Below are positions 34,111 through 54,072 of a stretch of 64,000 bases of DNA, piece after piece. A model generated the notes under the pieces. It saw nothing but the letters and a program-made list of their open reading frames with translations, was not told the origin of the DNA and did no database searches. A program made the position numbers and the translations under genes. This DNA comes from Enterobacter cancerogenus (GTDB lineage Bacteria > Pseudomonadota > Gammaproteobacteria > Enterobacterales > Enterobacteriaceae): contig NZ_CP077290.1 in the NCBI RefSeq assembly GCF_019047785.1, positions 1,116,001 through 1,180,000 on the forward strand. Direction: 5' to 3'. Each line of letters opens with the position of its first letter. The first letter of the stretch is position 1.

Positions 34111-34495
34111 TTCCGTTCACTTTACGAGCCTTGCTACTCTGTAACCATAGAACTTGTGAACGTGTTAAGGAGGCTCACCGCCGCCTCCTTAACAATCCGG
34201 GCTCCCTCAACCGCCTCTGCGGCGTGAATGTGGCACCGCCGTTGAGTCCCCGCTGAAATCGGCGAACCGTAGACCGGAGGACAAGGGCTGGACGCCATGG
34301 ATGGCGGCCAGAGGCGAAACGAGACAGGACGTCGAGTCGAGCCGACCGCAGGCAAACGGTCGGGAGGTGAGCGCAGTGCGGAGCACCGATTTCTCTGCGG
34401 GGCCGCGGGGATCGATAAGAGGGCCGCGGTGGCCCCCTTATTACGTTCACAGGTTCTGAACACAGTATATTCTGCACATATTGAGGTGAACGGAA
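34111..34495. repeat. Dispersed structured repeat, copy 1 (385 bp, deletion derivative)
   Basis: Bounded by terminal inverted repeats TTCCGTTCAC (34111-34120) and GTGAACGGAA (34486-34495). Inside are hairpin A, GTTAAGGAGGC (34164-34174) / GCCTCCTTAAC (34183-34193), and hairpin B near 34421-34451 (GGGCC-GCGGT-GGCCC core). The right ~270 bp are very similar to copy 2 at 53527-54072. Relative to copy 2 about 165 bp are missing between two GCTCCC direct repeats. Short open frames here are by-products of the repeat and look non-coding. Confidence 0.85.
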
Positions 34496-34550
34496 CCTGC
34501 CACTTTACTTAACCGATCAGCGTAGTAACGATAGCTGCTTTTTAATGCAA

Positions 34551-34580
34551 AAAAAATCCGCCACATTGGGCGGATTTTTT
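34551..34580 (-). terminator. Terminator of ompX
   Basis: Perfect stem AAAAAATCCGCC (34551-34562) / GGCGGATTTTTT (34569-34580) with an ACATTG loop. Read on the minus strand it ends with a T-run. It lies 19 bp beyond the ompX stop. Confidence 0.9.
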
Positions 34581-34598
34581 ACTGGCTCACCGAAGTGA

Positions 34599-35117
34599 TT
34601 AGAAGCGGTAACCTACGCCTGCAATCCAGGTGCCAACGTCAACGTTGCGGATACGGCTCTGCTCATAAGAGAAGTCCAGAGCAACGTTTTCGATTGGGTT
34701 GAACTGCATACCAGCGCCATAGGAGAAGCCGTAGTCGCTGTTGCTTGCAGTGCGGTTCAGACCTTCGTTTTCGGTCTGCTGGAATTTACCGTAGCCAACA
34801 CCTACAACACCGTAGATGCTTGCCCAGTCGTTCAGGCGGTAAGCAGGACCAGCGGTGATTCCGTAGTACTGACCTTTGTTATAAGCGCCGTTTTCAGTAC
34901 GATCTTTCTCAGTGTAGGTGAAAGAACCGATCACGCCCAGCGGGTTGTTGTCTTGCTCGTAACGATACTTCAGGTTAAAACCGTTAGTTTTGTTCATTAC
35001 GCCCTGCATATCGCTCTGAGCGTAACCACCGGTAACGGTAGAAGTAGCAGCTACAGCAGTACCTGCGGAAACAGCCAGTACAGCGGCCAGTGCTGAAAGA
35101 CATGCAATTTTTTTCAT
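34599..35117 (-). CDS. ompX: Outer membrane protein OmpX
   Basis: 172 aa from ATG 35117; the two upstream codons (GTG GTT) form part of the Shine-Dalgarno GAGGTGG. Signal peptide of 23 residues ending AVA, then an eight-stranded barrel with C-terminal Phe (GVGYRF). The sequence agrees with E. cloacae OmpX as I recall it and differs from E. coli OmpX in the loops (QQTENEGLNRTASNS). OmpX/Ail-family barrels are involved in surface interactions. The leader TTGAGGTGGTT matches the E. coli region targeted by the CyaR small RNA, so the same post-transcriptional control is likely. Confidence 0.96.
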   Translation of the reverse strand: MKKIACLSALAAVLAVSAGTAVAATSTVTGGYAQSDMQGVMNKTNGFNLKYRYEQDNNPLGVIGSFTYTEKDRTENGAYNKGQYYGITAGPAYRLNDWASIYGVVGVGYGKFQQTENEGLNRTASNSDYGFSYGAGMQFNPIENVALDFSYEQSRIRNVDVGTWIAGVGYRF

Positions 35118-35471
35118 AACCACCTCAAATGTGCTTCAAGTAAGTCCGTAAGTTTTAAATATATCAAAAAATCTTCTGAAACTCTTTGTGATTCGTGATG
35201 TCTAACTAAGATTTTCCTGTAACAGAACATTTCCAACAGCAGCTATCTTATTAAAATAACATAAAATTTTCGCTACAAAACGCTAATATTGCGCGTCAGT
35301 TCCGCTACATTCATCCAGATTATTCCTAATCTGAGTGTCTATAAATCCATCAACTCATCAGCATTTTACGTGTTTTGCGCGGATTTTTTTCAACAGAACC
35401 TCAACCGATGCAGCATATTTCTATTACACTGCCGCTTTTACCTCACTTGACATAAATTGACAGGAGAAAGG
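35118..35471. other. ompX-rhtA divergent intergenic region
   Basis: A 354-bp AT-rich region that must hold both promoters. The ompX-proximal 110 bp resemble the long E. coli ompX leader (ATCACGAATCACAAAGAG on the minus strand). No clear dyad operator or small gene was seen in the rest. Confidence 0.5.
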
Positions 35472-36359
35472 ATGCCTGCTTTATCCCGTACGTCGTCGGT
35501 CTGGATGCCGGTTGCCGTCATACTCATCGCCATGATGTCCATCCAGAGTGGTGCATCGCTGGCGAAATCTCTTTTCCCCATCGTGGGGGCACCCGGCGTC
35601 ACGGCGCTTCGAATCGCGTTAGGCACCCTGATCCTCGTGGTCATCTTCAAACCCTGGCGACTGCGGTTTAAAAAAGAGCAGCGTTTGCCTCTGCTTTATT
35701 ATGGACTGTCTTTGGGCGCGATGAACTATATGTTCTACCTCTCAATACAAACCATCCCGCTTGGCATTGCCGTTGCACTGGAATTTACCGGCCCGCTGGC
35801 CGTTGCCCTCTTCTCTTCCCGCCGTCCGGTTGACTTTATCTGGGTGGTGCTGGCGGTGCTGGGATTATGGTTCCTGCTGCCGCTGGGTCAGAGTGTTTCG
35901 CAGATCGACCTGACCGGTGCCGCGCTGGCGCTGGGCGCGGGAGCCTGCTGGGCGATCTATATTCTTTCTGGTCAGCGCGCCGGGGAGGAACACGGTCCGG
36001 CCACCGTGGCGCTGGGTTCGCTGATTGCGGCAATCATTTTTGTGCCGCTCGGCATGGCGCAAGCCACGGAATCAATATGGCAGTGGTCGGTCATGCCGAT
36101 CGGTCTGGCCGTCGCCATTCTCTCGACCGCACTCCCCTACTCGCTGGAGATGATTGCCCTGACGCGCTTGCCTACGCGTATCTTCGGCACGCTGATGAGC
36201 ATGGAGCCTGCCCTGGCGGCGATCTCCGGGATGATTTTCCTCGGGGAAACCCTGACCTTCACGCAGACGCTGGCGTTGTGCTCAATCATCGCGGCCTCAA
36301 TGGGGTCCACGCTGACGATGCGCCGGGAGCCGAAGGTTGAAAAGCTCGATATAAACTGA
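35472..36359 (+). CDS. rhtA: Threonine/homoserine exporter RhtA (EamA family)
   Basis: 295 aa from ATG 35472 with AGGAG six bases upstream; same length as E. coli RhtA. Ten hydrophobic segments form two EamA repeats; GAPGVTALRIALGTL and STALPYSLEMIALTRLPTR are typical. It exports threonine, homoserine and some other amino acids and analogues across the inner membrane. Divergent from ompX, as in E. coli. A 13-bp-stem hairpin follows the stop codon. Confidence 0.95.
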   Translation: MPALSRTSSVWMPVAVILIAMMSIQSGASLAKSLFPIVGAPGVTALRIALGTLILVVIFKPWRLRFKKEQRLPLLYYGLSLGAMNYMFYLSIQTIPLGIAVALEFTGPLAVALFSSRRPVDFIWVVLAVLGLWFLLPLGQSVSQIDLTGAALALGAGACWAIYILSGQRAGEEHGPATVALGSLIAAIIFVPLGMAQATESIWQWSVMPIGLAVAILSTALPYSLEMIALTRLPTRIFGTLMSMEPALAAISGMIFLGETLTFTQTLALCSIIAASMGSTLTMRREPKVEKLDIN

Positions 36360-36366
36360 TTGCTTT

Positions 36367-36396
36367 ATTCTGCATGGCTGCATAGCCATGCAGAAT
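36367..36396 (+). terminator. Hairpin after rhtA
   Basis: Perfect 13-bp stem ATTCTGCATGGCT / AGCCATGCAGAAT with a GCAT loop, directly after the rhtA stop. No long T-run follows. Confidence 0.6.
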
Positions 36397-37163
<767 letters not shown>

Positions 37164-37183
37164 TCCATACGAAGTTCCAATCA

Positions 37184-37207
37184 AACCCTCGCCCCGGCGG
37201 GGGTTTT
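37184..37207 (+). terminator. Terminator of dps
   Basis: CCCTCGCC (37186-37193) pairs with GGCGGGGG (37196-37203, one T-G pair) and TTTT follows. Confidence 0.75.
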
Positions 37208-37352
37208 GCACGTTTATGGTGCGTCACTTTTTCTAAACCACCTGCAAAAGTGAATAAAATGTAATAATCACCTCACACAACGGTTAATGGAAGATTGTTT
37301 TTTGGTCTGAAATTGCGCTAAATATCATCCCGTCAGTTAACCAAAACGAAGC

Positions 37353-37381
37353 GCACCAAAACGGTGCTCCATCTTGGTGCA
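37353..37381. promoter_or_regulatory. Two overlapping NtrC (GlnG) enhancer sites
   Basis: GCACCAAAACGGTGC (37353-37367) is a perfect-armed dyad matching the TGCACCA...TGGTGCA NtrC consensus. A second site TGCTCCATCTTGGTGCA (37365-37381) overlaps it by three bases. They lie about 75-100 bp upstream of the sigma-54 promoter of glnH, the normal enhancer position. Confidence 0.8.
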
Positions 37382-37451
37382 AAACAAGCGCGTTGCCACG
37401 AATAGCGTGCAGCGCGTGTCTTCATCCCCTATGCAAAACAACAACTTGTAA

Positions 37452-38267
<816 letters not shown>

Positions 38268-38290
38268 TTTCACCTGAAATCAGGTTTGTA

Positions 38291-38319
38291 CGCCCGGTGG
38301 CGCTAACGCCTACCGGGCC
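38291..38319. repeat. REP hairpin between glnH and glnP
   Basis: GCCCGGTGGCGCTAACGCCTACCGGGC-type hairpin in the 99-bp glnH-glnP gap (core arms GCCCGGT/ACCGGGC). In E. coli transport operons such elements raise the amount of binding-protein mRNA over that of the membrane genes. Confidence 0.75.
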
Positions 38320-38366
38320 TACGTTTTTCGTTTTTTGTTTTTCACCACGGTATACAGGAATACATC

Positions 38367-39026
38367 ATGCAGTTTGACTGGAGCGCCATCTGGCCTGCCA
38401 TTCCTCTCTTGCTTGAAGGCGCCAAAATGACCCTGTGGATTTCGGTCCTCGGTCTGGTTGGCGGGTTGATTATCGGCCTTGTTGCCGGTTTCGCCCGCAC
38501 CTACGGCGGCTGGATTGCTAACCACATCGCGCTGGTTTTCATCGAAGTGATCCGCGGCACGCCAATTGTCGTGCAGGTTATGTTCATTTACTTCGCCCTG
38601 CCCATGGCTTTCAACGACCTGCGCATTGACCCGTTCAGCGCCGCCGTTGTCACCATTATGATCAACTCCGGTGCCTACATTGCGGAAATTACCCGCGGCG
38701 CGGTGCTGTCGATCCATAAGGGCTTCAGCGAAGCAGGTCTGGCGCTGGGGCTTTCCCGTCGCGAAACCATTCGTCACGTTATCCTGCCACTGGCGCTGCG
38801 CCGCATGCTGCCGCCGCTGGGTAACCAGTGGATCATCAGCATTAAAGATACGTCGCTGTTTATTGTTATCGGGGTAGCCGAACTGACCCGTCAGGGCCAG
38901 GAGATTATCGCGGGCAACTTCCGTGCGCTGGAAATCTGGAGTGCGGTAGCCGTCGTCTACCTGATCATCACCCTGGTTCTGAGCTTTGTTCTGCGTCGTC
39001 TTGAAAGAAGGATGAAAATCCTGTGA
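38367..39026 (+). CDS. glnP: Glutamine ABC transporter permease GlnP
   Basis: 219 aa HisMQ-family permease with five predicted membrane helices. The EAA-like loop ([23 protein letters not shown]) is at about residues 118-140. It forms the homodimeric channel of the glutamine importer. It overlaps glnQ by GTGA. Confidence 0.97.
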
Positions 39027-39745
39027 TTGAATTTAAAAACGTTTCCAAGCACTTTGGCCCGACGAAGGTGCTGCACAATATTGACCTCAACATTCAACAG
39101 GGTGAAGTGGTGGTCATTATCGGGCCGTCCGGTTCCGGTAAATCAACCCTGCTGCGCTGCATCAACAAGCTGGAAGAGATCACCAGCGGCGATCTGGTTG
39201 TCGATGGCCTGAAGGTCAACGATCCGAAGGTTGACGAGCGACTGATCCGCCAGGAAGCCGGGATGGTGTTCCAGCAGTTCTACCTGTTCCCGCACCTCAC
39301 GGCGCTGGAAAACGTGATGTTTGGCCCCCTGCGCGTGCGCGGTGCCAATAAAGCGGCAGCCGAAGCGCTGGCAAAAGATCTGCTCGCCAAAGTGGGACTC
39401 GCCGAGCGGGCGCATCACTACCCGTCCGAGCTGTCCGGTGGTCAACAGCAGCGCGTGGCGATTGCCCGCGCGCTGGCGGTTAAACCCAAGATGATGCTGT
39501 TCGATGAGCCGACATCTGCGCTTGACCCCGAGCTGCGTCACGAAGTGCTGAAAGTCATGCAGGACCTGGCCGAAGAAGGGATGACGATGGTGATCGTGAC
39601 CCACGAAATCGGCTTCGCGGAGAAAGTGGCGTCTCGCCTGATCTTCATCGATAAAGGCCGCATTGCCGAAGACGGCAACCCGCAGGAGCTGATTGCCAAC
39701 CCGCCAAGCCAGCGCCTGCAGGAATTCCTGCAGCACGTCTCCTGA
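39023..39745 (+). CDS. glnQ: Glutamine ABC transporter ATPase GlnQ
   Basis: 240 aa, GTG start overlapping the glnP stop. Walker [10 protein letters not shown] (~32-40), Q-loop, signature LSGGQQQR, Walker [12 protein letters not shown] and H-loop VTHE are all intact. It powers glutamine import with GlnHP. Ends the operon before a strong terminator. Confidence 0.97.
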
Positions 39746-39768
39746 AGACGGCTGGCCGTTAAACATCA

Positions 39769-39792
39769 AGCCGGGCATGCCCGGCTTTTTTA
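39769..39792 (+). terminator. Terminator of glnHPQ
   Basis: AGCCGGGC / GCCCGGCT hairpin followed by TTTTTT. Confidence 0.9.
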
Positions 39793-39875
39793 CGCCAGAT
39801 TGTTCCCAAAAATCCCCCCCGGTTCCCCGCACTCTATACTTATCATTTTGCTGGACATTTTCGCCGGAGGACGCC

Positions 39876-42092
39876 GTGCCGTGGATCCTGTTGCTGTTGA
39901 TTAGCCTTTTTAGTGCTCCCTCGCTTGCCGTTGCGATACCAGGTGTAACAACCGGAACCGCCGCTACACAGCAAAATACGCCCCCACCGGAACCGGACGC
40001 CGAACAGAAGAAAGCCGCCTACAGCGCGCTGGCCGACGTGCTTGAAAATGATGCGTCCCGGCAGGAATTAATAGGTCAACTGCGTAAAGTCGCGGCAACG
40101 CCACCGCAGGAAGATGTCCCGGCGATCGCCCCGCCCGATGAGAAAGAACAAAAAACGGTGCTGGAGAATGTCACCGACGTCAGCCGCCACTACGGCGATG
40201 CCCTGGCTTCACGTTTTGCCCAGCTCTACCGCAACCTGATTGGTTCTCCCCATAAGCCGTTCAATCCCCAAACCTTCTCTGCCGCCGCCACGCAATTTCT
40301 CATCCTGGCAGGCACGGTATTCATTTTTTACTCGCTGGTGCGCCTGTGCGCCTGGCCGCTGTATCGCAAGATGGGCCAATGGGGACGTAAAAAGAACCGC
40401 GAGAAAAGCAGCTGGCTACATTTGCCGGCGATGATCGCCCTGGCGTTTATCATCGACTTACTGCTGCTGGCGCTGACCCTGTCTATCGGCCAGGTGCTTG
40501 CCGATCGTCTCAATACGGGCAATAAAACCATCGCCTTTCAGCAGGCGCTTTTCCTTAACGCCTTCGCTCTGATCGAATTTTTCAAAGCGCTGCTGCGTTT
40601 ACTCTTCTGCCCACACGTCCCGGAGCTGCGCCCCTTTTCGATTCAGGAACGCACCGCAAAATACTGGGCCTTACGTCTGAGCGTGCTCAGCGGCCTGATT
40701 GGCTACGGTCTGCTGGTCGCCGTGCCGATTATCTCCAACCAGGTGAACGTGCAGTTCGGCGCGCTGGCGAACGTGCTGATCATGATCTGCATCACCGTCT
40801 GGGCCTTGTACCTTATCTTTCACAATAAAAAAGCCATTACCGAGAGTCTGCTGCATCTGGCCGACCGCTCCCTCTCCTTCTTCAGCCTGTTTATTCGCGC
40901 CTTCGCGCTGGTCTGGCACTGGCTGGCAAGCGCGTACTTTATTGTGCTGTGCTTCTTCTCGCTGTTTGATCCGGGTAATAGCCTGAAATTTATGATGGGG
41001 GCGACGTTCAAAAGCCTGGCAATTATCGGCATCGCGGCGTTTGTCTCGGGCCTGCTGTCGCGCTGGATCTCGAAAACCATCACCCTCTCCCCGCACGTTC
41101 AGCGCAACTATCCGGAGCTGCAAAAACGGGTTAACGGCTGGATGTCGGTATCCCTGAAGGTGGCGCGCATTCTGACGGTGTGCGTCGCCATTATGTTGCT
41201 CCTGAACGCCTGGGGGTTGTTCGATTTCTGGAACTGGCTGCACAACGGCGCGGGGGAAAAGACCGTCGATATTCTGATCCGCATTGCGCTGATTCTGTTC
41301 TTCTCTGCCGTAGGCTGGACGCTGCTGGCGAGCCTGATCGAAAACCGTCTGGTTTCGGATATTCACGGCAGGCCCTTGCCAAGCGCCCGCGCCCGCACGC
41401 TGCTGACCCTGTTTCGCAACGCGCTGGCGGTGATTATCAGTACCATCACCATCATGATCGTGCTCTCTGAAATCGGCGTGAATATCGCACCGCTGCTGGC
41501 AGGTGCCGGTGCCCTGGGGCTGGCTATTTCTTTCGGCTCCCAGACGCTGGTGAAGGACATCATCACCGGTATCTTCATCCAGTTTGAGAACGGGATGAAC
41601 ACCGGCGACCTGGTGACCATCGGGCCGCTCACCGGCACGGTGGAGCGGATGTCGATTCGCTCCGTGGGCGTGCGTCAGGATACCGGCGCATACCACATCA
41701 TTCCCTGGTCCTCGATCACCACCTTCGCCAACTTCGTGCGCGGGATTGGTTCGGTCGTGGCGAATTACGATGTGGATCGCCATGAAGATGCCGATAAAGC
41801 GAAGCAGGCGCTGCAGGATGCGGTAGCGGAGTTGATGGAGATGGAGAACATTCGCGGGCTGGTGATTGGCGAGCCGTCGTTTGCGGGCATTGTCGGGCTG
41901 ACGAACACCGCCTTTACGCTACGCGTGTCGTTCACCACCCAGCCGCTGAAGCAGTGGACGGTGCGCTTCGCGCTCGACAGCATGGTGAAGAAACATTTCG
42001 ATCTGGCGGATGTGCGGATGCCGGTGCAGACGTATCAGGTCGTCTCTCCGCCTTCGGCCACACCGCTGCCGCCGCAGGAGCCGACGCTGTAG
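39876..42092 (+). CDS. ybiO: MscS-family mechanosensitive channel YbiO
   Basis: 738 aa from GTG 39876, with GGAGG five bases upstream; longer in-frame extensions run into the glnQ terminator. Signal peptide (SLAVA), a periplasmic N-terminal region (~22-150), about ten helices and the pore-lining TM3 (LAGAGALGLAISFGSQTLVKDIITGIFI) at about residues 545-570, then a cytoplasmic beta domain. Close to E. coli YbiO (741 aa). It opens under membrane tension after hypoosmotic shock. Monocistronic, ended by a REP-like hairpin. Confidence 0.95.
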   Translation: MPWILLLLISLFSAPSLAVAIPGVTTGTAATQQNTPPPEPDAEQKKAAYSALADVLENDASRQELIGQLRKVAATPPQEDVPAIAPPDEKEQKTVLENVTDVSRHYGDALASRFAQLYRNLIGSPHKPFNPQTFSAAATQFLILAGTVFIFYSLVRLCAWPLYRKMGQWGRKKNREKSSWLHLPAMIALAFIIDLLLLALTLSIGQVLADRLNTGNKTIAFQQALFLNAFALIEFFKALLRLLFCPHVPELRPFSIQERTAKYWALRLSVLSGLIGYGLLVAVPIISNQVNVQFGALANVLIMICITVWALYLIFHNKKAITESLLHLADRSLSFFSLFIRAFALVWHWLASAYFIVLCFFSLFDPGNSLKFMMGATFKSLAIIGIAAFVSGLLSRWISKTITLSPHVQRNYPELQKRVNGWMSVSLKVARILTVCVAIMLLLNAWGLFDFWNWLHNGAGEKTVDILIRIALILFFSAVGWTLLASLIENRLVSDIHGRPLPSARARTLLTLFRNALAVIISTITIMIVLSEIGVNIAPLLAGAGALGLAISFGSQTLVKDIITGIFIQFENGMNTGDLVTIGPLTGTVERMSIRSVGVRQDTGAYHIIPWSSITTFANFVRGIGSVVANYDVDRHEDADKAKQALQDAVAELMEMENIRGLVIGEPSFAGIVGLTNTAFTLRVSFTTQPLKQWTVRFALDSMVKKHFDLADVRMPVQTYQVVSPPSATPLPPQEPTL

Positions 42093-42098
42093 CCTGGT

Positions 42099-42129
42099 TG
42101 CCGGGTGGCGGCTTCGCCTTACCCGGCCT
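42099..42129. repeat. REP hairpin between ybiO and rlmF
   Basis: CCGGGT...ACCCGG arms around GGCGGCTTCGCC, in the short gap between convergent genes. Same style as the repeat at 2141-2172. Confidence 0.7.
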
Positions 42130-42139
42130 GCGGGACACA

Positions 42140-43051
42140 TTATTTGCGGCGTTTGTTATCGTCCATAAACGACCAGGCGATGAATCGGCTCTGCTTCTGC
42201 CCCTGCGCCATCTCTTTTTTGACCACTTTTACCGCGCCCGCATCGGTCAGGGCACGGTACAGCGGCGGCAGGTTGTCGCCGCGTGAGACTAACGTCGTGA
42301 ACCACTTCACCTGGCGGCCATAGGCTTTGCTCTCATCAATCATGCGCAGGATAAACGCCACTTCACCGCCTTCACACCACAGCTCCTGCTGCTGGCCGCC
42401 AAAGTTCAGCGCCGCATCTTGCGCCTGGCCCAGATTGCGACGCTTGCGCTCGCTGCCCGCACGGGCGGTTGCCGCGGAGTCATGGAACGGCGGGTTGCAC
42501 ATCGTGGCATCGTACTGTTCGTTTTTATGAATGATGCTGTTGAAAATCGACGACGCATCTTTCTGGCGACGCAGGCGAACCGCGCGGCTTAACCCCGGGT
42601 TGGCGTTGATGATGGCCTGCGCGCTTGAGAACGCCTCTGCGCCCGTTTCACTGCCGGTAAAACGCCAGCCGTATTCATGCGCGCCAATAAGCGGGTAGAT
42701 CAGATTCGCCCCGGTACCGATATCCAGAACGCTTGCCTGCGCGGGAACCACGCCGTCGCAATCGTCGGCCAGCAGATCGGCAAGGTGGTGAACGTAATCG
42801 GCACGGCCGGGTACGGGCGGGCAGAGAAAGCCTTCAGGAATGTCCCAGTGCGTCACGCCGTAGAAATGGGCCAGCAGCGCTTTGTTCAGCGCTTTTACCG
42901 CCTGCGGATCGGCAAAGTTAACCGAGGGCTCACCGGCCGGGGTCTGGACGATAAAAGTCTTTAGCTCCGGGCAGCTCTGGCACAGGGCATTCATGTCATA
43001 ACGGCTGCGGTGGCGATTACGGGGGTGCAATCCGGGCTTTTGGGAAGTCAT
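42140..43051 (-). CDS. rlmF: 23S rRNA (adenine-N6)-methyltransferase RlmF (YbiN)
   Basis: 303 aa Rossmann-fold methyltransferase. The SAM-binding motif is [12 protein letters not shown] and the N6-adenine catalytic motif is NPPF ([10 protein letters not shown]). In E. coli RlmF methylates A1618 of 23S rRNA. The C-terminus is about five residues shorter than in E. coli. Monocistronic; the promoter region is shared with divergent mcbA. Confidence 0.95.
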
Positions 43052-44625: not shown

Positions 44626-45588
44626 CTAAAACGCCTGCGCCACGCGCTCAAGCCCTGCGTCCAGCGTCGCCACCTCACCCGTCGCCAGCAGACAACACGC
44701 CATCTGCAGCATTATCGCGCGCGGTACGGGGACATTGCCTGCCAGACACTGTTCAATCCAGCGCGCGGTAGTATGCGGATCTTTCGCCGCAGGCAGGATA
44801 ACGTCTGTGTTCTCCTCGCCGCGCTCAAGCAGCGCGCGCGTGCCCTGTGCGTCGATCAGCACCAGCTGTGGGCAGCGCTGCGGGTTGGCATACACCTCCC
44901 CTTCCGTACCGTGCATCAGTAACGCCCTGCCGCCGATCGCGTCAAAGAAGGTGCCTACGCGGGTGACATACTCCGGATGCGACACGCTGGAGAGACGCAG
45001 CGCGGCATCTTCCGCAAACGGCGTCGCCAGCTTTGCCAGGGTGTGGGCGCTGTTACGCACCCCCATTCGCCAGCGCATATCCAGCTGCTTCTCCAGCGGC
45101 GGGCAGAGCGCTTTCACCGGAATAAACACGGGCTGATGGCTGTCGAGCTTTGCCTGCGCCTGGCCGGCGTGCAGGGTCGGCTCAATCCCCAGCTGTTCAA
45201 AAATGGTCTGGGTCAGAACGCGCGTAGGATCTTCACTCACCCCGTGCACCACCACCGGAAAACCGAGCTTGTGCAGCAGGATCGCCAGCAGCGGCGTCAG
45301 GTTCGCCTGCTTGCGCGCGCCGTTATAGCTGGGAATAACAATCGGCATTGGTTTTGCCACCGGTGGCGTCAGGCGGATTGTCTGCGCCTGCATGGCGTCG
45401 TAAAAACCGCGCATTTCGGCTTCCCCTTCCCCCTTGATCCGCAGGGCAATCAGTATGCCGCCCATTTCCAGATCGGGTACTTCGCCGATCAGCATATGGC
45501 TGTAGAGCGCGCGGGCAGTTTCACGATCCAGGTCGCGAGCGTGGTTTTTCCCGCGCCCTACTTCTTTGATAATTTTGCGATAATCCAC
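44626..45588 (-). CDS. ybiB: YbiB, TrpD2-family nucleic-acid-binding protein
   Basis: 320 aa with the anthranilate phosphoribosyltransferase-like fold: an N-terminal helical domain (~1-70) and a C-terminal Rossmann-like domain. TrpD2 proteins lack the TrpD active site; E. coli YbiB binds nucleic acids through a basic groove and is in the LexA regulon as dinG-ybiB. Here a 5.4-kb fimbrial operon separates the two, so ybiB must use another promoter. No LexA box was seen at 45589-45836. Confidence 0.92.
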   Translation of the reverse strand: MDYRKIIKEVGRGKNHARDLDRETARALYSHMLIGEVPDLEMGGILIALRIKGEGEAEMRGFYDAMQAQTIRLTPPVAKPMPIVIPSYNGARKQANLTPLLAILLHKLGFPVVVHGVSEDPTRVLTQTIFEQLGIEPTLHAGQAQAKLDSHQPVFIPVKALCPPLEKQLDMRWRMGVRNSAHTLAKLATPFAEDAALRLSSVSHPEYVTRVGTFFDAIGGRALLMHGTEGEVYANPQRCPQLVLIDAQGTRALLERGEENTDVILPAAKDPHTTARWIEQCLAGNVPVPRAIMLQMACCLLATGEVATLDAGLERVAQAF

Positions 45589-45836
45589 GACATTTCTCCT
45601 TCCTGCATAGTGCTCTCACTATAGCCCTGATGAAGTCCCGCCAGATAGCCTTTTATCCCCGAAAACAGCGCCCGCGTTTTTGAACATAAAAAATAATGCA
45701 AGAAAAAGTTCAATTATTTGTGAGCTGAATACAAGAATCTTCTCCGCCCGGATTTTGTTTAAATATCGACCGAAGTTAGTGAGGAACAACGGCGGAAACT
45801 TCCAGGCAAGGTCTCCGCCCTACATCAGGATTAATT

Positions 45837-46373
45837 ATGAATAAGATTGCGTTAGGTCTCTTCGTCGCATCCGTTGTGGGCTGCTCGGCCTCCGCTTTTG
45901 CGGCAACGGACGGAGAAGGACAAATCAACTTTACGGGCGAAATCATTGATTCCGCGTGTCAGGTTGTAAATGGTTTAAGTAATCCGTTGAACGTGACCTT
46001 AGGCAAGGTCTCGAAAACGGTCTTTACCGGTGCAGGCTCCACCAGCACCGCCACGAAATTTGATATTGAGCTGAAAAACTGCCCGGAAACCGTTACCTCG
46101 GCGTCCATCAATTTTGGCGGTACGCCAGATGCGAATAACAACACGACGCTGGCGCTGACCCCGGATGCGGATGCGGCAAGCGGCGTGGCGATCCAGCTGC
46201 TCGACTCTTCTGAACAACCCGTGAGCTTATACACGCCGTCCAAAGAGTACCCTCTGGCTTCCGGAACCGCCGTTAACGATCTTGAATTTGGTGCACGTTA
46301 TATTCAAACCCAGGCAGCGGTCACCGCAGGCCCGGCAAACTCCGTCTCCACATTCACCGTTATTTATAACTGA
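45837..46373 (+). CDS. Major fimbrial subunit (FimA-like pilin)
   Basis: 178 aa. Signal peptide of ~23 residues (ASAFAA), then an Ig-like pilin fold with donor strand GQINFTGEIIDSAC. A Cys pair (near residues 41 and 80) is placed as in type 1 pilins, and the chain ends with the penultimate-Tyr beta-zipper motif (FTVIYN). First gene of a five-gene chaperone-usher operon and thus the likely main shaft subunit. The preceding 248 bp should hold the promoter; no invertible element or recombinase gene was found. Confidence 0.9.
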   Translation: MNKIALGLFVASVVGCSASAFAATDGEGQINFTGEIIDSACQVVNGLSNPLNVTLGKVSKTVFTGAGSTSTATKFDIELKNCPETVTSASINFGGTPDANNNTTLALTPDADAASGVAIQLLDSSEQPVSLYTPSKEYPLASGTAVNDLEFGARYIQTQAAVTAGPANSVSTFTVIYN

Positions 46374-46436
46374 TATCATCCTTCAAGGACTATTTTTCGT
46401 GTGATCAATAGTCCTTCCTTATTTTGAGAAACAGCT

Positions 46437-47111
46437 ATGCGTCACGGTTATTTACTGAGCACACTTTTACTGGTTGCAGCGACCGCACATGCGGGGGTGA
46501 TTATTAACGGCACGCGCCTTATTTACCAGGGAGGGAAAAAGGAATCCTCAATCGGTATTTCAAACCCGGATGCAACAGATTATCTGGTGCAGTCCTGGGC
46601 GGATTCTGGCGGTAAAAATCTGGCGAAAGCGCCGTTTCTGATTACGCCTCCCCTTTTTCGCCTGGATGCCAAAGAAGATAACGTATTGCGCGTTGTCCGC
46701 ACCGGCGGAAATTTACCTGAAGATCGCGAGTCGCTTTTTTGGCTGAATATTAAAGCCATTCCCTCATCAAAACGCGTTGAGGGCGTGAATACGCTGCAAA
46801 TCGCCATCAACACGCGCATTAAATTACTTTATCGCCCGTCATCGGTTAAAGGCAAACCGGAAGACGTGGCCGATAAGCTGGAATGGCACCGCGAGGGCAA
46901 CGACCTGGTGGTTAATAACCCAACGCCATTTTATATGAATTTCCAGAGCGTCACGCTGAACGGCCACAAAATTGATAAAGCCGGCTGGGCCGTGCCAGAA
47001 ACGCAAACGCGCATCGCACTGCCTGCTCATACCGGCGGCTCTAACGTCACCTGGTCAATTATTACTGACTACGGCAGCATCAGCAAAAGCTGGTCTACAT
47101 CCGTTCATTAA
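46437..47111 (+). CDS. Periplasmic fimbrial chaperone (PapD/FimC family)
   Basis: 224 aa. Signal peptide ends AHA (~residue 19). Two Ig-like domains. The conserved N-terminal segment VIINGTRLIYQGGKKESSIGI contains the usual Arg, and the middle block INTRIKLLYRP carries the Lys that anchors pilin C-termini. The F1-G1 loop is short, i.e. an FGS-type chaperone. It holds pilin subunits for the usher encoded next. Confidence 0.92.
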   Translation: MRHGYLLSTLLLVAATAHAGVIINGTRLIYQGGKKESSIGISNPDATDYLVQSWADSGGKNLAKAPFLITPPLFRLDAKEDNVLRVVRTGGNLPEDRESLFWLNIKAIPSSKRVEGVNTLQIAINTRIKLLYRPSSVKGKPEDVADKLEWHREGNDLVVNNPTPFYMNFQSVTLNGHKIDKAGWAVPETQTRIALPAHTGGSNVTWSIITDYGSISKSWSTSVH

Positions 47112-47134
47112 TCGACAGCCAAACAGTGGATTGA

Positions 47135-49702
47135 ATGGTTATTTATACCTCTACCCCAGGAAGGCCGTTCAGGCTGCCTTCCGTTTACCGATTACTGACT
47201 CTGCTGACCCTGATATGCGGTCTGGCAGTGATTGGTTTTTCGCAAAAAACGCGGGCAGATGATTATTTTAACCCGGCGCTGCTTGACGTCGATAATCCAC
47301 AGCAGGAAAAAACTGACCTGTCTATTTATGAAAAAGGACCAGGTCAGGCGCCTGGAAAATATCAGGTCGCCATTTATATCAATAACAATAAAATTGATAC
47401 CCGCGACGTCACTTTTACGCTGCAAAAAGCGGCGTCGGGCGAGACTTCGCTTCAGCCCTGTTTTAGTCTGGACGAGTTAAAGAGCCTCGGCATTAAAACC
47501 AAATCGTTTCCTGCGCTGGCGGGCGCGGGGAAATGTGCCAACCTGCACGCCATTCCGGCGGCCTCGGCCACGTTTCGCGTCAGCAATCAGCAGCTGCTGT
47601 TGAGCATTCCGCAATCCGCGCTGGGCCAGATGCCGCGCGGCTATATCGACCCGAAAGAATTTGATGAGGGGATCACCGCCGGAATACTCAACTACAGCGC
47701 CACCGCCAGCCAGACGCAGGCCCGCCAGCCCGGCATGCAGGACAGCAGCAGCCAGTACGTGAATCTTCGCCCCGGCCTGAACATTGGCGCGTGGCGCATC
47801 CGTAACTATTCCACCTGGAACCGCAGCACCACCGGCCACGAAGAGCAGCAGAAATTCTCGTCGGTTTACACCTATGCCCAACGCGATATCGTGGCGATGA
47901 AAAGCGATGTGACGCTGGGCCAGAGCAGCTCCCCGGCCGACGTCTTTGACAGCGTGCCCTACACCGGCGTGCAGCTTAACTCCGACAGCGACATGCTGCC
48001 GGACAGCGAAAGAGGCTACGCCCCTATCATTCGCGGGACCGCGCACAGCAACGCGCAGGTGGTGGTCCGCCAGAACGGCTACGTCATTTATCAGAACACC
48101 GTGGCGCCGGGCGCGTTCGAAATTAACGATTTGTACCCCACCGGCAGCAGCGGTGATTTACAGGTCACCGTAAAAGAGACGGACGGCAGCGAGCGCCACT
48201 TTGTGGTGCCTTACGCCTCTGTCCCCGTTTTGCAGCGTGAAAAGCACCTGAAGTACAGCGCAACCGCGGGCCGCTATCGTTCCTACGATAAAGACGTCGA
48301 GAAAACGCCCTTTGCCCAGGGCAGCGCCATCTATGGTTTACCGTACGGCTTCACCGCCTACGGCGGCCTGCAGCAAAGCAGCCATTACCACTCCGCGGCG
48401 CTCGGCACCGGGAAAAACTTTGGCGATCTCGGGGCGTTCTCCATTGACGTCACTCGCGCCAAAGCGCTGCTCAAGAAACAGAAAGCCAGCAAAGGCCAAT
48501 CCTGGCGCCTGCGTTACAGCAAAGACTTTGCCGGCACGGGTACCAACTTCTCGCTGGCAGGCTATCGCTACAACAGTAAAGGGTTCTACACCCTGGAAGA
48601 CACCATGGAGTCGTACACCCATGCCAGCGACTGGTCGGCACCGCAGCAGCGTCGCGCCCGTACCGAGGCCACCATCGATCAGACGCTGGGCGAAGGCTGG
48701 GGGTCGGTCACGCTGAGCCTGGTGAAAGAGACCTACTGGACCCAGAGCCAGGACATGACCTCCATGAGCGTCAGCTACAACAACAGCTGGAAGGGCATCA
48801 CCTACAGCCTGAGCTACAGCCTGAACAAAAATACCAACGACAGCGATGAAAACGGCGAGTCGGTCAGCAACGATAATCTGTTCGCGCTGAGCGTTTCGGT
48901 TCCGCTCGACCGCTGGATGCACAACACCTGGGCTACCTACAACATGAACAACAGCAAGGACGGCACCGTACAGAACCTCGGGGTAAACGGCACGGCGCTG
49001 GAGGAGAACAACCTTAACTGGAACGTTCAGGAAGGTCTGGACTCCTCAGGTAACGGCAACTCAACCAGCATGAACGCCGACTATAAGGCCACCTACGGCG
49101 AACTGAGCGGCGGCCTGAGCCAGGATAAAAACCAGCGCACCGCCAACGTGGGCCTGCAGGGCGGGGTTATCGCCCATGCCAACGGCATCACCCTGAGCCA
49201 GCCGCTGGGCGAAACCATCGCCCTGGTGAAAGCGCCGGGCACGCACGGGACGCACATCGCCAACCAGACCGGCGTTGAGACCGACTTCCGCGGCTATACC
49301 GTGGTGCCGTTTGTGACCGCATACCGACACAACACCATCGAGCTGGATACCGAAACGCTGCCGGACGATGCCGACGTGACGCACGCGGCGCAAATCGTCA
49401 CCCCCACCCGCGGCGCGGTGGTGCGCGCCACCTTCAACACCCGCGTGGGCAACCGGGTGCTGATGACGCTGACGCACGGCGGTAAGCCGCTGCCGTTCGG
49501 CGCAACGGTTACCACGGAAGATAAAGACAGCGAGTTTATCGTGGGCGTTGACGGCCAGACCTATCTCTCCGGGCTGCCGAGGCGCGGCAAGCTCGACGTG
49601 TCATGGGGGCAGGACGCCAGCGAGCACTGTGTCGCAAATTACGTACTTACGGACGAGAAAAATAAAACCAACATTATTAACGCTGCTGCGCAGTGTCACT
49701 AA
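47135..49702 (+). CDS. Outer membrane fimbrial usher (FimD/PapC family)
   Basis: 855 aa, standard usher length. A signal region of about 41 residues precedes the N-terminal chaperone-binding domain (FNPALLDV..., ~45-165). A 24-strand barrel with an internal plug (~250-340; the RGTAHSNAQVVVRQNGY region) follows, then two C-terminal domains with a Cys pair. It secretes and orders pilin subunits. Shine-Dalgarno before ATG 47135 is weak. The gene is slightly more GC-rich than the pilin genes around it. Confidence 0.93.
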   Translation: MVIYTSTPGRPFRLPSVYRLLTLLTLICGLAVIGFSQKTRADDYFNPALLDVDNPQQEKTDLSIYEKGPGQAPGKYQVAIYINNNKIDTRDVTFTLQKAASGETSLQPCFSLDELKSLGIKTKSFPALAGAGKCANLHAIPAASATFRVSNQQLLLSIPQSALGQMPRGYIDPKEFDEGITAGILNYSATASQTQARQPGMQDSSSQYVNLRPGLNIGAWRIRNYSTWNRSTTGHEEQQKFSSVYTYAQRDIVAMKSDVTLGQSSSPADVFDSVPYTGVQLNSDSDMLPDSERGYAPIIRGTAHSNAQVVVRQNGYVIYQNTVAPGAFEINDLYPTGSSGDLQVTVKETDGSERHFVVPYASVPVLQREKHLKYSATAGRYRSYDKDVEKTPFAQGSAIYGLPYGFTAYGGLQQSSHYHSAALGTGKNFGDLGAFSIDVTRAKALLKKQKASKGQSWRLRYSKDFAGTGTNFSLAGYRYNSKGFYTLEDTMESYTHASDWSAPQQRRARTEATIDQTLGEGWGSVTLSLVKETYWTQSQDMTSMSVSYNNSWKGITYSLSYSLNKNTNDSDENGESVSNDNLFALSVSVPLDRWMHNTWATYNMNNSKDGTVQNLGVNGTALEENNLNWNVQEGLDSSGNGNSTSMNADYKATYGELSGGLSQDKNQRTANVGLQGGVIAHANGITLSQPLGETIALVKAPGTHGTHIANQTGVETDFRGYTVVPFVTAYRHNTIELDTETLPDDADVTHAAQIVTPTRGAVVRATFNTRVGNRVLMTLTHGGKPLPFGATVTTEDKDSEFIVGVDGQTYLSGLPRRGKLDVSWGQDASEHCVANYVLTDEKNKTNIINAAAQCH

Positions 49703-49723
49703 TCCATCGTGAAGGCTTAGCAT

Positions 49724-50713
49724 ATGCAACTCGTTAAATCGTTCTTCTTTCTTCTCGTTCTGGGCACGGCATCGTTCTTTATGCCTCATGCAAAGGCCAC
49801 CTGTACGACGCCGGACATGCCGAAGATGATCAACGTTGCCTCGGTTTCCGTGCCGACAACCCTGCCGGTGGGGGAAACCATTCCAGGCACCGAGCAGACC
49901 GTTCACGTCGCGGGCAATTGCGATGAAAGCGTCGACAGCGGCCTTGAGATTGTCTCCTGCTACTACGGCACCGGTTCAGAAATTCCCGGCATGAGGGGGG
50001 TGTATGATTCGGGTGTTGAGGGCATTGGCGTCGCCCTGATGAACGAACAAGGTCAGCGCATCAGAGGCGCGGGCGGCGTACAGTGTGACTCCCGGGAAAC
50101 GCCGATTGGCTATATCTCGACCGACGGCAAACAGTCGTTCAGCTTCAACGTCACCCTGGAGCTGGTAAAGACCAGCGATAACGTCATCTCCGGGACGCTT
50201 GTGCAGTCGCAAACCAGATTTGGCATCGGCGTCTTTGCCCATGAAGGCATCGGCAACCCTAACAATATCGCCTACTCCGGCAACGTGATCCTCCACCAGG
50301 TGACCTGCTCGGTGTCACCAAAAGATCTGACCGTGAATCTGGGCGATTTCCCGTTAAGTGATTTTGTGGGTACCGGCACGCTCTCCGATCCGGCGCAAAC
50401 GGTCTACGTCAACGTTAACTGCGACACGACAGTCCAGCCGCAAATGAAGGTTACCAGCGGCAACGGCTACGAGAGCGCGTTCCCCGGGGTGATTAAGCTT
50501 ACCCAGGAGAGCGGCGTCGCCACGGGCATCGGCGTCAGAATGCTGGTGGACGGCATGATCCCGACGTTTGGTGAATATGAGTCGCTGGGGACCGAAGCCT
50601 ATGCCAACCAGACGCTGCGCATTCCGCTGGAGTTGCGCTACGAACAAACTGCTGCCCTTGTGACCCCTGGCCCTGCCAACACCGTCGCCACCGTCACGCT
50701 TGCCTATAAGTGA
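49724..50713 (+). CDS. Two-domain fimbrial tip adhesin (FimH-like)
   Basis: 329 aa. Signal peptide ends AKA (~residue 25). The N-terminal ~160 residues have their own Cys pairs and look like a receptor-binding domain; the C-terminal ~150 residues are a pilin domain (TCSVSPKDLTVNLGDF... ending ATVTLAYK). This two-domain layout, position after the usher and lack of a donor strand at the N-terminus fit a tip adhesin. No ligand can be predicted; the binding domain is not recognisably FimH. Confidence 0.82.
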   Translation: MQLVKSFFFLLVLGTASFFMPHAKATCTTPDMPKMINVASVSVPTTLPVGETIPGTEQTVHVAGNCDESVDSGLEIVSCYYGTGSEIPGMRGVYDSGVEGIGVALMNEQGQRIRGAGGVQCDSRETPIGYISTDGKQSFSFNVTLELVKTSDNVISGTLVQSQTRFGIGVFAHEGIGNPNNIAYSGNVILHQVTCSVSPKDLTVNLGDFPLSDFVGTGTLSDPAQTVYVNVNCDTTVQPQMKVTSGNGYESAFPGVIKLTQESGVATGIGVRMLVDGMIPTFGEYESLGTEAYANQTLRIPLELRYEQTAALVTPGPANTVATVTLAYK

Positions 50714-50719
50714 TCTCAG

Positions 50720-51223
50720 ATGAAAAAAATCATGTTGTTAACGCTGCTGGGGCTGATGACGAGCGCCCATGCAGATGACATTAATCTCCAGATAACGGGA
50801 CATATCTATGCCAACACCTGCGTCGTGGACAGCGCCAGCCGAAATTTGACCGTCGATTTGGGCCAGGCAACCGCAACGAGCTTTAAAAGCGTGGGCGATA
50901 CGGGAGAGTGGAAAGAATTTTCCCTGAAGGTGTCGCATTGTCCGTCAAGCCTGACGCTGTCGAACGCCTTTTTTTACGGCCAGCCCGACAGCGTTCACCC
51001 GACGAAATTTGCCAATACCGGCAGCGCAAAAGGCCTTGCGCTTGAACTGGCCGACCGGCAGGACAACATCCTGATTTCGCCGCAGGCCAGTTTTAACGTG
51101 GTGATTAACAAAAGCGACCATACGGCAGAGTTCCCCCTGGCCGCCCGCTACTATGCAACCTCCACGCCCGTCAGCGCCGGTACGTTTAACAGCGTTGTGC
51201 AGGTGACATTCACTTACCAGTAG
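50720..51223 (+). CDS. Minor fimbrial subunit
   Basis: 167 aa. Signal peptide ends AHA (~18), followed by a single pilin domain (LQITGHIYANTCVVDSASR... ending VVQVTFTYQ) with a Cys pair. Probably an adaptor between tip adhesin and shaft, or a terminator subunit. It starts six bases after the adhesin gene. Its last 14 bp overlap the 3' end of dinG on the other strand. Confidence 0.87.
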   Translation: MKKIMLLTLLGLMTSAHADDINLQITGHIYANTCVVDSASRNLTVDLGQATATSFKSVGDTGEWKEFSLKVSHCPSSLTLSNAFFYGQPDSVHPTKFANTGSAKGLALELADRQDNILISPQASFNVVINKSDHTAEFPLAARYYATSTPVSAGTFNSVVQVTFTYQ

Positions 51224-53387
51224 GACCGCGCCCCTTAGCACGGATGCTTTTTTTACGCCCGGCAATCACTTTCGCCGGGCGTTTTTTTACCTCGGGCACG
51301 TCGGGCTGTTCAATCGGGAACACGGGCAAGGCGTTCAGCAACCGCGGGCCGTAATTTTTGGTCAGCAGCCGTTTATCGTAAATCACCACCTCGCCCCAGC
51401 AGCCGTGGCTACGAATCAAGCGCCCCACCTGCTGAATCAGGTTAAACGACGCCGCCGGCAGGCTTTGCACCTCAAACGGATAGCGATTCAGGCTTTTCAG
51501 CCATTCGCCCTCGGTGATCACCACCGGGCTGTCGATAGGCGGGAAGGCGATTTTATGGATATGCACCTGGGTTAAATAATCCCCCTTCAAATCCAGCCCT
51601 TCCGCGAACGACTGCAGGCCGATCAGCACGCTGCGCTCGCCGCCGTCAATACGCTGGCGGTGCAGCTCGACCAGCCGGTAGCGGGGCTTATCGCCCTGCA
51701 CCAGCAGCAGTAACCGCAGGTCGGTGACGTGTTCAAGGAAGCGCTGCATCGCGCGCCCGCTGGCAAACAGCACCAGCATGCCAGGGAATTTTTTGCTCTC
51801 AAGCTGCTCACGGAAGTAGGCCGCCATCTCGGCGATATGCTGTTCTTCGTTGTCGATAAGCGGCTCGTACTGCATACGCGGGATCACCAGCTTGCCCTGC
51901 TCGCAGTGGTTAAACGGCGAATCCAGCGCCACGAAGCGGTCGCCCGCTTTCTCCCGGAGGCCGCTCATCTCCTGCAGCCTGGAGAAGCTGTTCAGGGAAC
52001 GCAGCGTGGCTGACGTGACGACGACATGCGGCACGCTGCGCCAGATGAGCTTTTCCAGCTGATCGGCAACGCGGATACCCACGCAGTGGAAAAAGAGGTG
52101 CACCTGCCCGTCCCGCGTTTCCCGGGTCGCCCATTTGGTGACCGGCGCGCCGGACGCCTGCGCCAGAGAGGCCAGCCGCCAGAGCTTGCTTTGCGCCTCG
52201 AACATGCCGAGCGCGCGGTTCATCTGCAACAAAATACGGTGCAGGCGCACCACGTCGTGGGTGCCGGTTTTCTCGCTCAGGTCGTTTAAGAACATCTCCG
52301 CCAGCCCGCGCAGCTTCTCAAGGTGCTTCGCCAGCTGCTGGCAAATCTCCATCACCTCGTCCGGCAATTCGCCCATGGCAAAGCGGTGTTCCGCCTCCTG
52401 GGTCTGCGGCAAATACAGGTTGAGGATGTTATTCAGCGACGAGATTAGCCCGTACACCTCGTCGCAATGCTCGTTGAGGCGTTCAGGCACCGCCAGCGGT
52501 GGCGTGGTTTTCGGGCGGAACTGCTCCATGCAGGTTGCCACCAGCTTGCAGAACAGATCGAGCTGCAGGCGGAACCACGGGGCGGTAATTTCGGCGCTCA
52601 TCTCCAGAGCATCGCGCGCGACGTCCGGCAGATGGTGTCCTTCATCCAGCACCAGCAGCAGGTTTTTCGGCTCCGGCAGCACAGCTTCGCTCTCAAGCGC
52701 CGCCATCACCAGCGCATGGTTTGCGACCACCACTTCCGCTTCCTGAATCTCGCGGCGGGCGACAAAGAACGGGCATTCGCGGTAATAGTGGCAGTTGCGG
52801 TTCAGGCAGCTCGCTTTATCGGTGCTCAGCCTGCGCCAGAGATCGTCGCTGATGGCCTCGCTGGTGTGGTCGCGCAGTCCGTCCCACTTATAGCCGTCGA
52901 GATCGGTTTTCAGTTTGGCGCACCGCTCCTGCTCGGCCTTGTTGTTCGGCGTCAGTTCATCATCAAGAAACGCCAGCAGATCCTGTTGCGCAGGCTCGCT
53001 GCTGGCGAGCGCCGCCAGGTTACGCGGGCAGACGTAGCGACCACGGCCAAAGGCGGCAGTAAAACGGAGATCGGGGATAATTTTGCGCAGCAGCGGCAGG
53101 TCTTTGCTGAAGATTTGATCCTGCAACGCCACGTTGGCGGTACTCACCACCAGCGTTTTTTGCTCTTCCCGCGCAATCGCAATGCCGGGGATAAGATACG
53201 ACAGGGTCTTCCCGACGCCCGTCGGGGCTTCAATCGCCAGATGCCGCCCGTCGTCCCCGGCGAGCGTTTTTGCCACATCAGCAATCATCTGCCGCTGAGG
53301 CGCTCGGGGAATAAAGTCGGGGATCTGCTGTTGTAGCGCCTTATACCAGGCGCCAATTTGCGCTTTGAGCGCCGCGGTTAAAGCCAT
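51210..53387 (-). CDS. dinG: ATP-dependent DNA helicase DinG
   Basis: 725 aa XPD-like superfamily 2 helicase. Walker A EAPTGVGKT (53-61), DEGH box (248-251) and the 4Fe-4S cysteines Cys120, Cys194, Cys199 and Cys205 are all present at E. coli positions. Later motifs include ATLRS, GLQSFAEGLDL and QQVGRLIRS. It unwinds DNA-RNA hybrids and D-loops at replication-transcription conflicts. The tail after ~705 (ending GRGPTGK) differs from E. coli and its last codons lie antisense to the pilin gene end. SOS control by a LexA box. Confidence 0.96.
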   Translation of the reverse strand: MALTAALKAQIGAWYKALQQQIPDFIPRAPQRQMIADVAKTLAGDDGRHLAIEAPTGVGKTLSYLIPGIAIAREEQKTLVVSTANVALQDQIFSKDLPLLRKIIPDLRFTAAFGRGRYVCPRNLAALASSEPAQQDLLAFLDDELTPNNKAEQERCAKLKTDLDGYKWDGLRDHTSEAISDDLWRRLSTDKASCLNRNCHYYRECPFFVARREIQEAEVVVANHALVMAALESEAVLPEPKNLLLVLDEGHHLPDVARDALEMSAEITAPWFRLQLDLFCKLVATCMEQFRPKTTPPLAVPERLNEHCDEVYGLISSLNNILNLYLPQTQEAEHRFAMGELPDEVMEICQQLAKHLEKLRGLAEMFLNDLSEKTGTHDVVRLHRILLQMNRALGMFEAQSKLWRLASLAQASGAPVTKWATRETRDGQVHLFFHCVGIRVADQLEKLIWRSVPHVVVTSATLRSLNSFSRLQEMSGLREKAGDRFVALDSPFNHCEQGKLVIPRMQYEPLIDNEEQHIAEMAAYFREQLESKKFPGMLVLFASGRAMQRFLEHVTDLRLLLLVQGDKPRYRLVELHRQRIDGGERSVLIGLQSFAEGLDLKGDYLTQVHIHKIAFPPIDSPVVITEGEWLKSLNRYPFEVQSLPAASFNLIQQVGRLIRSHGCWGEVVIYDKRLLTKNYGPRLLNALPVFPIEQPDVPEVKKRPAKVIAGRKKSIRAKGRGPTGK

Positions 53388-53400
53388 CGTAAACCTGAAA

Positions 53401-53420
53401 TACTGTATAAACAGCCACTA
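53401..53420. promoter_or_regulatory. LexA box of dinG
   Basis: TACTGTATAAACAGCCACTA is almost the same as the E. coli dinG LexA site (reverse of TATTGGCTGTTTATACAGTA). It sits about 14 bp upstream of the dinG start codon. Confidence 0.85.
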
Positions 53421-53526
53421 TTGTGGCACTTTCCGGCGGATGCCGCAAAAAGAAAAAGTCCAGATGTAAGGACAAGAGCCTCGCAGCGAATCTACACAAA
53501 GGCTCTTTGTTATTTCAGTGGCATCG

Positions 53527-54072
53527 TTCCGTTCACTTTAACTATCCTGCTACCTGGTCATTTCTCTGCGGTGAACGTGCTAAGGGGGCTACCGCCGCCC
53601 CCTTAGCAATCCCGGCTCCCGGCAGAGAAAATCGCCGCTTCGCGGTGCCCTCAGCTTATTCCTTCCGGCTTTCGGGTCGGGCACCAGCCTGCATCCCTGC
53701 AGGCTATGCCCTCGCCGCGCATCCCTGCGCGTCGCCCCGGCCTTCAGGAAACGCTTCGGCGATTTTCAGCCGGACTCTCGCTCCCTCAACCTTTTATGCC
53801 GCCTGAATGTGGCACCGCCGTTGAGTCCCGCAGAAATCGGCGAACCGGAGACCGGATGACAAGGGCTGGACGCCATGGATGGCGGCCAGAGGCGAAACGA
53901 GACAGGACGTCGAGTCGAGCCGACCGCAGGGAGACGGTCGGGAGGTGAGCGCAGTGCGAAGCACCGATTTCATGGCGGGCCGCGGGGATTGACAAGGGGG
54001 CCGCGGTGGCCCCCTTGTCACGTTCACGGGTAATGAACGTATTATATTCTGTGGATATTAAGGTGAACGTAA
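53527..54072. repeat. Dispersed structured repeat, copy 2 (546 bp, long form)
   Basis: Terminal inverted repeats TTCCGTTCAC (53527-53536) and GTGAACGTAA (54063-54072). Hairpin A: GCTAAGGGGGC (53579-53589) / GCCCCCTTAGC (53597-53607). Hairpin B: GACAAGGGGGCC / GGCCCCCTTGTC (about 53991-54019) with a GCGGT loop. The body from about 53785 to 54030 is very similar to copy 1 at 34111-34495. It fills the dinG-rhlE gap. Open frames inside appear in several phases without usual start sites and are taken as non-coding. Confidence 0.88.

Follow-up and report, generated by a model that had tools for sequence, protein, structure and literature searches.

Terminator-inserted IS4-type repeats of Enterobacter and its relatives as candidate carriers of CsrA-type hairpins

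TwoAYGGAY (RF01731, clan CL00106) has so far been an RNA family of unknown function with two adjacent AYGGAY-type hairpins, whose binding to CsrA is predicted (PMC4333381), and in the passages available on it the RNA is nowhere described as mobile. RNAs of the CsrB/CsrC/RsmZ type sequester CsrA through arrays of hairpins whose GGA loops are of the CsrA site type, and IS4 (IS4 family, IS4 subgroup) has terminal repeats of the -AATR type and 10-13 bp target repeats (PMC2266710). Here we describe a family of repeats with features of all three, found as two copies in a 64,000-nt stretch of the Enterobacter cancerogenus genome (GCF_019047785.1, NZ_CP077290.1, positions 1,116,001-1,180,000; the window, in whose numbering all feature positions are given). 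The copies lie at 34111..34495 (copy 1) and 53527..54072 (copy 2), exactly where a first-pass annotation had placed them; it had proposed a non-autonomous mobile element or a structured RNA family, and the evidence supports both at once. Our reading, to which we give a probability of about 0.6, is that a non-autonomous IS4-type element delivers CsrA-type sites into transcript 3′ ends.

Copy 2 and arm A of the relative L275 match TwoAYGGAY RNA both in sequence and in structure, and an IS4-ended relative (L402) contains a match above cut-off, whereas the window copies reach 31.1 of 43 bits and the motif is here mobile-element cargo in divergent inverted pairs. Unlike CsrB, CsrC and RsmZ, the elements have few sites per arm instead of ~20, occur in many dispersed copies, and no dedicated promoter was found; unlike IS4, they have no transposase gene, and their interior is unrelated to IS4. 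ERIC/RU-1, RU-2 and RU-3, enterobacterial repeats resembling miniature inverted-repeat transposable elements (MITEs), are also small intergenic mobile repeats with stable folds, but are 103-168 bp long and duplicate TA (PMC2759123). The boxC/intrastrand triplex motif, of which some Enterobacter genomes have over 300 (PMC4666352), flanks one class of the elements (class II) and the left of copy 1 as a neighbour and apparent target, not as the element itself. Among papers on Enterobacter or enterobacterial repeats, MITEs, IS4 and terminators, and CsrA with mobile repeats or sponges, mostly covered by title and abstract opening and with few subscription journals among them, no description of the element was recognised.

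In the mechanism we propose, an IS4-group transposase would move the non-autonomous element, which has IS4-type ends and inserts into intrinsic terminators with a 10-14 bp target duplication. The interior is a large imperfect palindrome, whose two diverged inverted arms bear ANGGAN hairpins closed by C-G, the putative CsrA/RsmE recognition site and core of Rfam TwoAYGGAY. Since the insertion splits the terminator open, read-through of the neighbouring genes should enter the element from either side and would transcribe the GGA hairpins of one arm each; such transcripts may bind and titrate CsrA, or may place the host mRNA under CsrA control.

Terminal repeats, target sites and distribution

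Intact relatives of the window copies end in outer inverted repeats, TAATGC(C/T)(A/T)GTCAGTTAAGC, which begin 30 or 53 nt, and in one case 84 nt, outward of TTCCGTTCAC and match the ends of IS4 in E. coli K-12, TAATGCCGATCAGTTAAGG and TAATGCCAGTCAGTTAAGC. Checking 50 loci for paired ends, with at most five mismatches in all, gave 26 elements of 122-737 bp. Target duplications of at least 10 bp (at most two mismatches; lengths 10-14 bp) flank 16 of these 26 elements, compared with 15 of 2000 random controls, and the restored site is terminator-like in 25 of 26, compared with 158 of 2000, the terminator call being weaker for the 10 elements without a good duplication, where the site was restored via the best-scoring short match. 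Example sites (CCCCGGCTATCCG, CAGCCAAAAGCTG and CTCACGCGGAGC) each comprise the loop of a terminator with some of its stem, and a T run comes next. The IS4 target rule is AAA-N20-TTT. By eye, six autonomous or broken IS4-group elements likewise sit in terminator-like hairpins. The IS4-type ends make an IS4-group transposase the most likely agent of their movement. As many-copy palindromic intergenic repeats, often in inverted pairs, they also recall REP/BIME-like repeats, short palindromes that bear a tetranucleotide tag and are moved by a REP-associated tyrosine transposase. That origin is very improbable, already disfavoured by the target duplications, which together with the IS4-type terminal repeats mark an IS4-type DDE transposase, and the element lengths speak against it as well.

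The mapping of ends and empty sites suggested in the first-pass annotation, which returned the 16 duplications above, also returned empty sites. Copy 1 lies between genes that we take, from gene order, to be opgE and ompX, and copy 2 between what are presumably dinG and rhlE. In 28 of 30 fetched dinG-rhlE loci the spacer is 98-141 nt long and has an intact terminator without the repeat; one other is the window itself. Locus L265 (genome G017) has an IS4-like end within the dinG-rhlE terminator, where copy 2 sits in the window, and that terminator has therefore been hit at least twice. Thirteen of the 30 opgE-ompX loci fetched were read, and the spacer has an element in five (the window's included) and none in eight. 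The window copies are almost certainly decayed members of a mobile family. In several elements of one genome (L072-L076 and L081, genome G022), the interior is broken by an insertion-sequence-like stretch with transposase-like reading frames.

At the window copies themselves no target duplication is visible, and IS4-type ends are present in degenerate form only, as judged by eye. An apparent remnant at the right end of copy 1 (34508..34528, minus strand) was recognised against sites such as TAATGCTGATCGGTTAAGC; the left end of copy 2 (53474..53492, plus strand), placed from the spacing in L068, is strongly decayed and weak (~10/19 matches), and its right end (54085..54101, minus strand) is decayed too (~11/17 matches). 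The copies begin with TTCCGTTCAC at 34111 and 53527 and finish with GTGAACGGAA at 34495 and GTGAACGTAA at 54072; TTCCGTTCAC..GTGAACGGAA, initially taken for the element ends, is subterminal, given the outer ends of the intact relatives.

The initial description as a two-copy repeat holds in that both copies are real, and understates the family, which has seven matches in its own genome and occurs in 22 of 40 genomes first surveyed. All 22 fall within the 24 same-genus genomes (own included), and the 16 genomes of other families gave no match. A wider sample of the family, 246 genomes from 154 genera, has arm A in 58 genomes (40 genera) and arm B in 32 (21 genera). Of the 15 stretches that a pattern scan of named genomes picked up, Lelliottia sp. 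V86_10 accounts for 14 and Kosakonia quasisacchari for one, and E. coli has partial matches only, in 20 of 5426 genomes. The single matching plasmid record, from Klebsiella variicola (NZ_CP114358.1, 33 kb; L147), holds an arm-B relative between two boxC-like motifs, with loop ACGGAG and a changed stem. A phage origin was discarded, the phage collection having given no match.

Conserved ANGGAN loops and TwoAYGGAY matches

Copy 2 consists of arm A (~53527-53785) followed by an inverted arm B (~53786-54072). In a second, commoner class (class II; 105 collected segments, including a few spurious ones), arm A stands alone next to a boxC/triplex motif, with apparent terminal repeats GGGCTGAGGAATCCCCAG, and by eye it seems inserted in boxC hairpins. 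An optional cassette of ~78 nt (ACAAAATTGCC ... GGGATGGGACGAGTAAT) occurs at a similar place in either arm and adds one ANGGAN hairpin (L071-L075, L127, L130, L136-L138, L240, L241 and L243).

One strand of each arm has short hairpins with the loop A-N-GGA-N and a C-G closing pair. By its sequence, this is the published CsrA/RsmE site type: the CsrA site from systematic evolution of ligands by exponential enrichment is RUACARGGAUGU, and RsmE binds an ANGGAN hexaloop in which N is variable (PMC7652899). Among the hexaloop hairpins of 83 class II copies, ANGGAN was found in 108 of 328 on one strand and 0 of 328 on the other, and CANGGANG occurs 2.05 times per element, compared with 0.12 in dinucleotide shuffles (91 copies); loop b is frequently TTACAGGGATGT. 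On a tree of the 83 copies, a single substitution falls in the eight A/G/G/A columns and 32 fall in the four N columns, against a mean of 2.2 per column. In permutations the fixed columns have p = 0.009, the free columns 0.008 and the choice of free loop positions 0.002, in a test limited by the 120 of 253 columns that have no substitution at all.

The same pattern extends to other genera, where mean pairwise identity is 0.74 for arm A and 0.72 for arm B. A perfect-stem ANGGAN hairpin is present there in 26 of 27 arm-A and 18 of 25 arm-B loci, and in none on the other strand. When loop a of arm A was aligned without selection for the motif, A was found in 26/27, GG in 27/27 and A in 27/27, with all four bases at N, while the stems differ (CAGCCCAC/GTGGGCTG, GAACCCGC/GCGGGTTC, CGGGCCGC/GCGGCCCG). 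Permutation p values were 0.016 and 0.017 for fixed columns, and 0.15 and 0.03 for free ones. Of the 25 arm-B loci, 17 have the leading A in the alignment; the eight gaps are two loci not aligned, two shifted and four truly without the A. We consider that the hairpins are probably CsrA-type binding sites, and the genome itself encodes CsrA and CsrB.

TwoAYGGAY is the best Rfam family for copy 2, with 31.1 bits and expectation values (E) of 0.007 and 0.002. The sub-threshold matches lie at 34286..34347 in copy 1 (plus strand, 31.1 bits, G000:C1:1150286-1150347; hexaloop ATGGAT at 34297-34302) and at 53864..53925 in copy 2 (plus strand, gathering score 43; hexaloop ATGGAT at 53875-53880). In copy 2, two loops of arm A read AGGGAT (A-R-GGA-Y) on the minus strand, hexaloop b at 53693..53698 and hexaloop a at 53721..53726; arm B has the one ATGGAT and a second hairpin with GGA that is not ATGGAT. 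At E ≤ 0.05, the only three TwoAYGGAY hits in this genome are its three arm-B copies, the two above and one outside the window, and in the 24 same-genus genomes the single hit at E ≤ 0.001 falls, on the predicted strand, in the arm A of a class II element. Among 60 family genomes, 14 have a match (E ≤ 0.05), above cut-off in seven, often as many dispersed copies, and 12 of 20 fetched loci have clear homology to arm A or B. In L402 the match scores 49.2 bits and lies within an element with IS4-type ends and a 13-bp duplication, CTGTCAGCGGGGG. Moreover, among 62 hits in three genomes, 12 of 12 close pairs are divergent and inverted, 234-289 nt apart, a layout as in the window copies.

Two further observations concern TwoAYGGAY-bearing or arm-bearing loci. 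L403 and genome G123 (~37 hits) show another dispersed repeat that bears TwoAYGGAY; it forms divergent inverted pairs and has hardly any homology, or none, to the arms. In L279, sub-threshold matches to naRNA4 (RF02564, nucleoid-associated RNA) at 1428-1508 (minus) and 1775-1854 (plus) flank an arm-A relative.

Stem covariation, transcription context and competing explanations

The paired changes that the first-pass annotation had described in the two hairpins are present. Hairpin A of copy 1 (34164..34193, arms GTTAAGGAGGC at 34164-34174 and GCCTCCTTAAC at 34183-34193) differs from that of copy 2 (53579..53607, arms GCTAAGGGGGC at 53579-53589 and GCCCCCTTAGC at 53597-53607) by two paired changes. 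Hairpin B (34415..34441 in copy 1; 53991..54019 in copy 2, by direct comparison and covariation) has one more, T-A in copy 1 and C-G in copy 2, together with one unpaired A.C mismatch in copy 1. Covariation also holds over many copies, relative to a null of substitution shuffling (20 shuffled alignments, with the tree built without hairpin columns). In 83 class II copies one stem pair scored above every null score (T-A 58, C-G 20; 13 joint and four other events), and so did one in arm B of 34 class I copies (C-G 17, T-A 9, A-T 8; nine joint and 0 other events). One further class I pair, two columns apart and hence no possible stem pair, was also above the null, which shows that the test yields some false positives. 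Gene conversion as the sole cause of the joint changes was rejected, because the class II pair encloses two variable columns, which are seen with either pair type.

These results leave two sources for the covariation, as the first-pass annotation had it, with selection on RNA not favoured over DNA copying. G-U cells are about as rare as A-C cells (3 vs 7 of 1052 in the arm A head stem; 1 vs 2 of 350 in arm B), and the stems alone therefore make no case for RNA; joint changes with few or no intermediates, and without a G-U preference, are explained by hairpin-templated copying of DNA no less well than by selection on RNA. DNA template switching, which can generate compensatory changes (PMC8794818), is thus a fair rival as the source of stem covariation, and the fixed ANGGAN loops are the better sign of functional RNA. 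The same observations, together with the lack of orientation bias described below, favour a purely selfish, terminator-seeking IS4-type element without any CsrA role, whose stems would be kept by template switching between the palindrome arms and whose loops would be kept for a DNA reason (single-strand folding, or a host or transposase protein). Such an element accounts for the stems, but not for a fixed A/GGA with variable N's on one strand only, and it leaves the TwoAYGGAY match unexplained; we regard it as unlikely, though deserving of weight.

For the transcription context, 100 class II loci were clustered by site into 84 independent sites, of which 45 lie between convergent genes and one between divergent genes. 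Where the upstream gene could be called (74 sites), it shares the ANGGAN strand in 60. An orientation bias had seemed a sign of selection in a small set with a crude gene caller (14:2 in tandem contexts), and was dropped when the larger set gave 14:13. Thus, transcription of the element is plausible, while selection for transcription is not supported by the tandem count. Sites in terminators, mostly between convergent genes, would also suit a cis-acting RNA, whose hairpins would determine where neighbouring mRNAs end or how stable they are, or would restore the broken terminator, with little effect on free CsrA; this is improbable, because target choice alone would give such a context and the tandem sites have no strand bias.

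Several observations weigh against the delivery of CsrA-type sites by an IS4-type element. Among tandem genes there is no preference for the ANGGAN strand, no promoter-like site was found in copy 2, and the G-U wobble strand test gave RNA no support. IS4-group transposase genes are present in four of 60 genus genomes and not in this one, and the element therefore looks immobile in this host. The loop statistics are only moderate (p 0.002-0.009 in class II; across genera 0.016-0.017 for fixed and 0.15/0.03 for free columns), and some arm-B relatives are without the leading A. Both window copies stay under the TwoAYGGAY gathering score, and eight of the 20 fetched TwoAYGGAY loci show no visible homology to arms A or B, so that TwoAYGGAY has other carriers too.

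The window copies and the meaning of the family

Both window copies are degenerate. Folded as the plus strand, each forms a single large imperfect hairpin (-181 kcal/mol for copy 1 and -278 kcal/mol for copy 2), because halves A and B are diverged inverted arms. Copy 1 is the head of arm A fused to a full arm B, with the junction GGCTCCC at 34200-34206. In copy 2, GCTCCC flanks both ends of the stretch that is absent from copy 1, and deletion or recombination between these repeats therefore likely produced the copy 1 form. To the left of copy 1, 34011..34110 (plus strand) is by eye the left part of a class II chassis, with an apparent terminal repeat GGGCTGAGGAATCCCCAG from 34011 and a boxC/triplex motif at 34054-34090, a layout matched, by eye, in L004 and the syntenic L041, L048, L055 and L058. 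Copy 1 is thus a chimera of two chassis, class II on the left and class I on the right. A protein-coding reading, prompted by open reading frames of 97-127 aa that overlap the repeats, is disfavoured by the paired stem changes, indels and optional cassettes. No transfer RNA was found in the window, and no Rfam family at gathering score, so that a known RNA at that score was rejected as well.

A physiological CsrA sponge effect is a tentative proposal. Equally tentative is the broader view of a widespread enterobacterial transposable element whose selected cargo would be CsrA-titrating RNA, with TwoAYGGAY in Enterobacteriaceae being largely the footprint of such sponges. As cargo of a terminator-targeting element, the TwoAYGGAY motif would gain a way to spread and a direct test. 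The element family is also a large natural set in which template-switch covariation, in the stems, may be separated from selection, in the loops. If the proposed mechanism is true, opened terminators would make host transcripts carry decoy sites for the global regulator CsrA. Should CsrA bind these sites, the amount of free CsrA in a cell would depend in part on how many copies of a selfish element it has, and usually ignored repeats would make related strains differ in their regulation.

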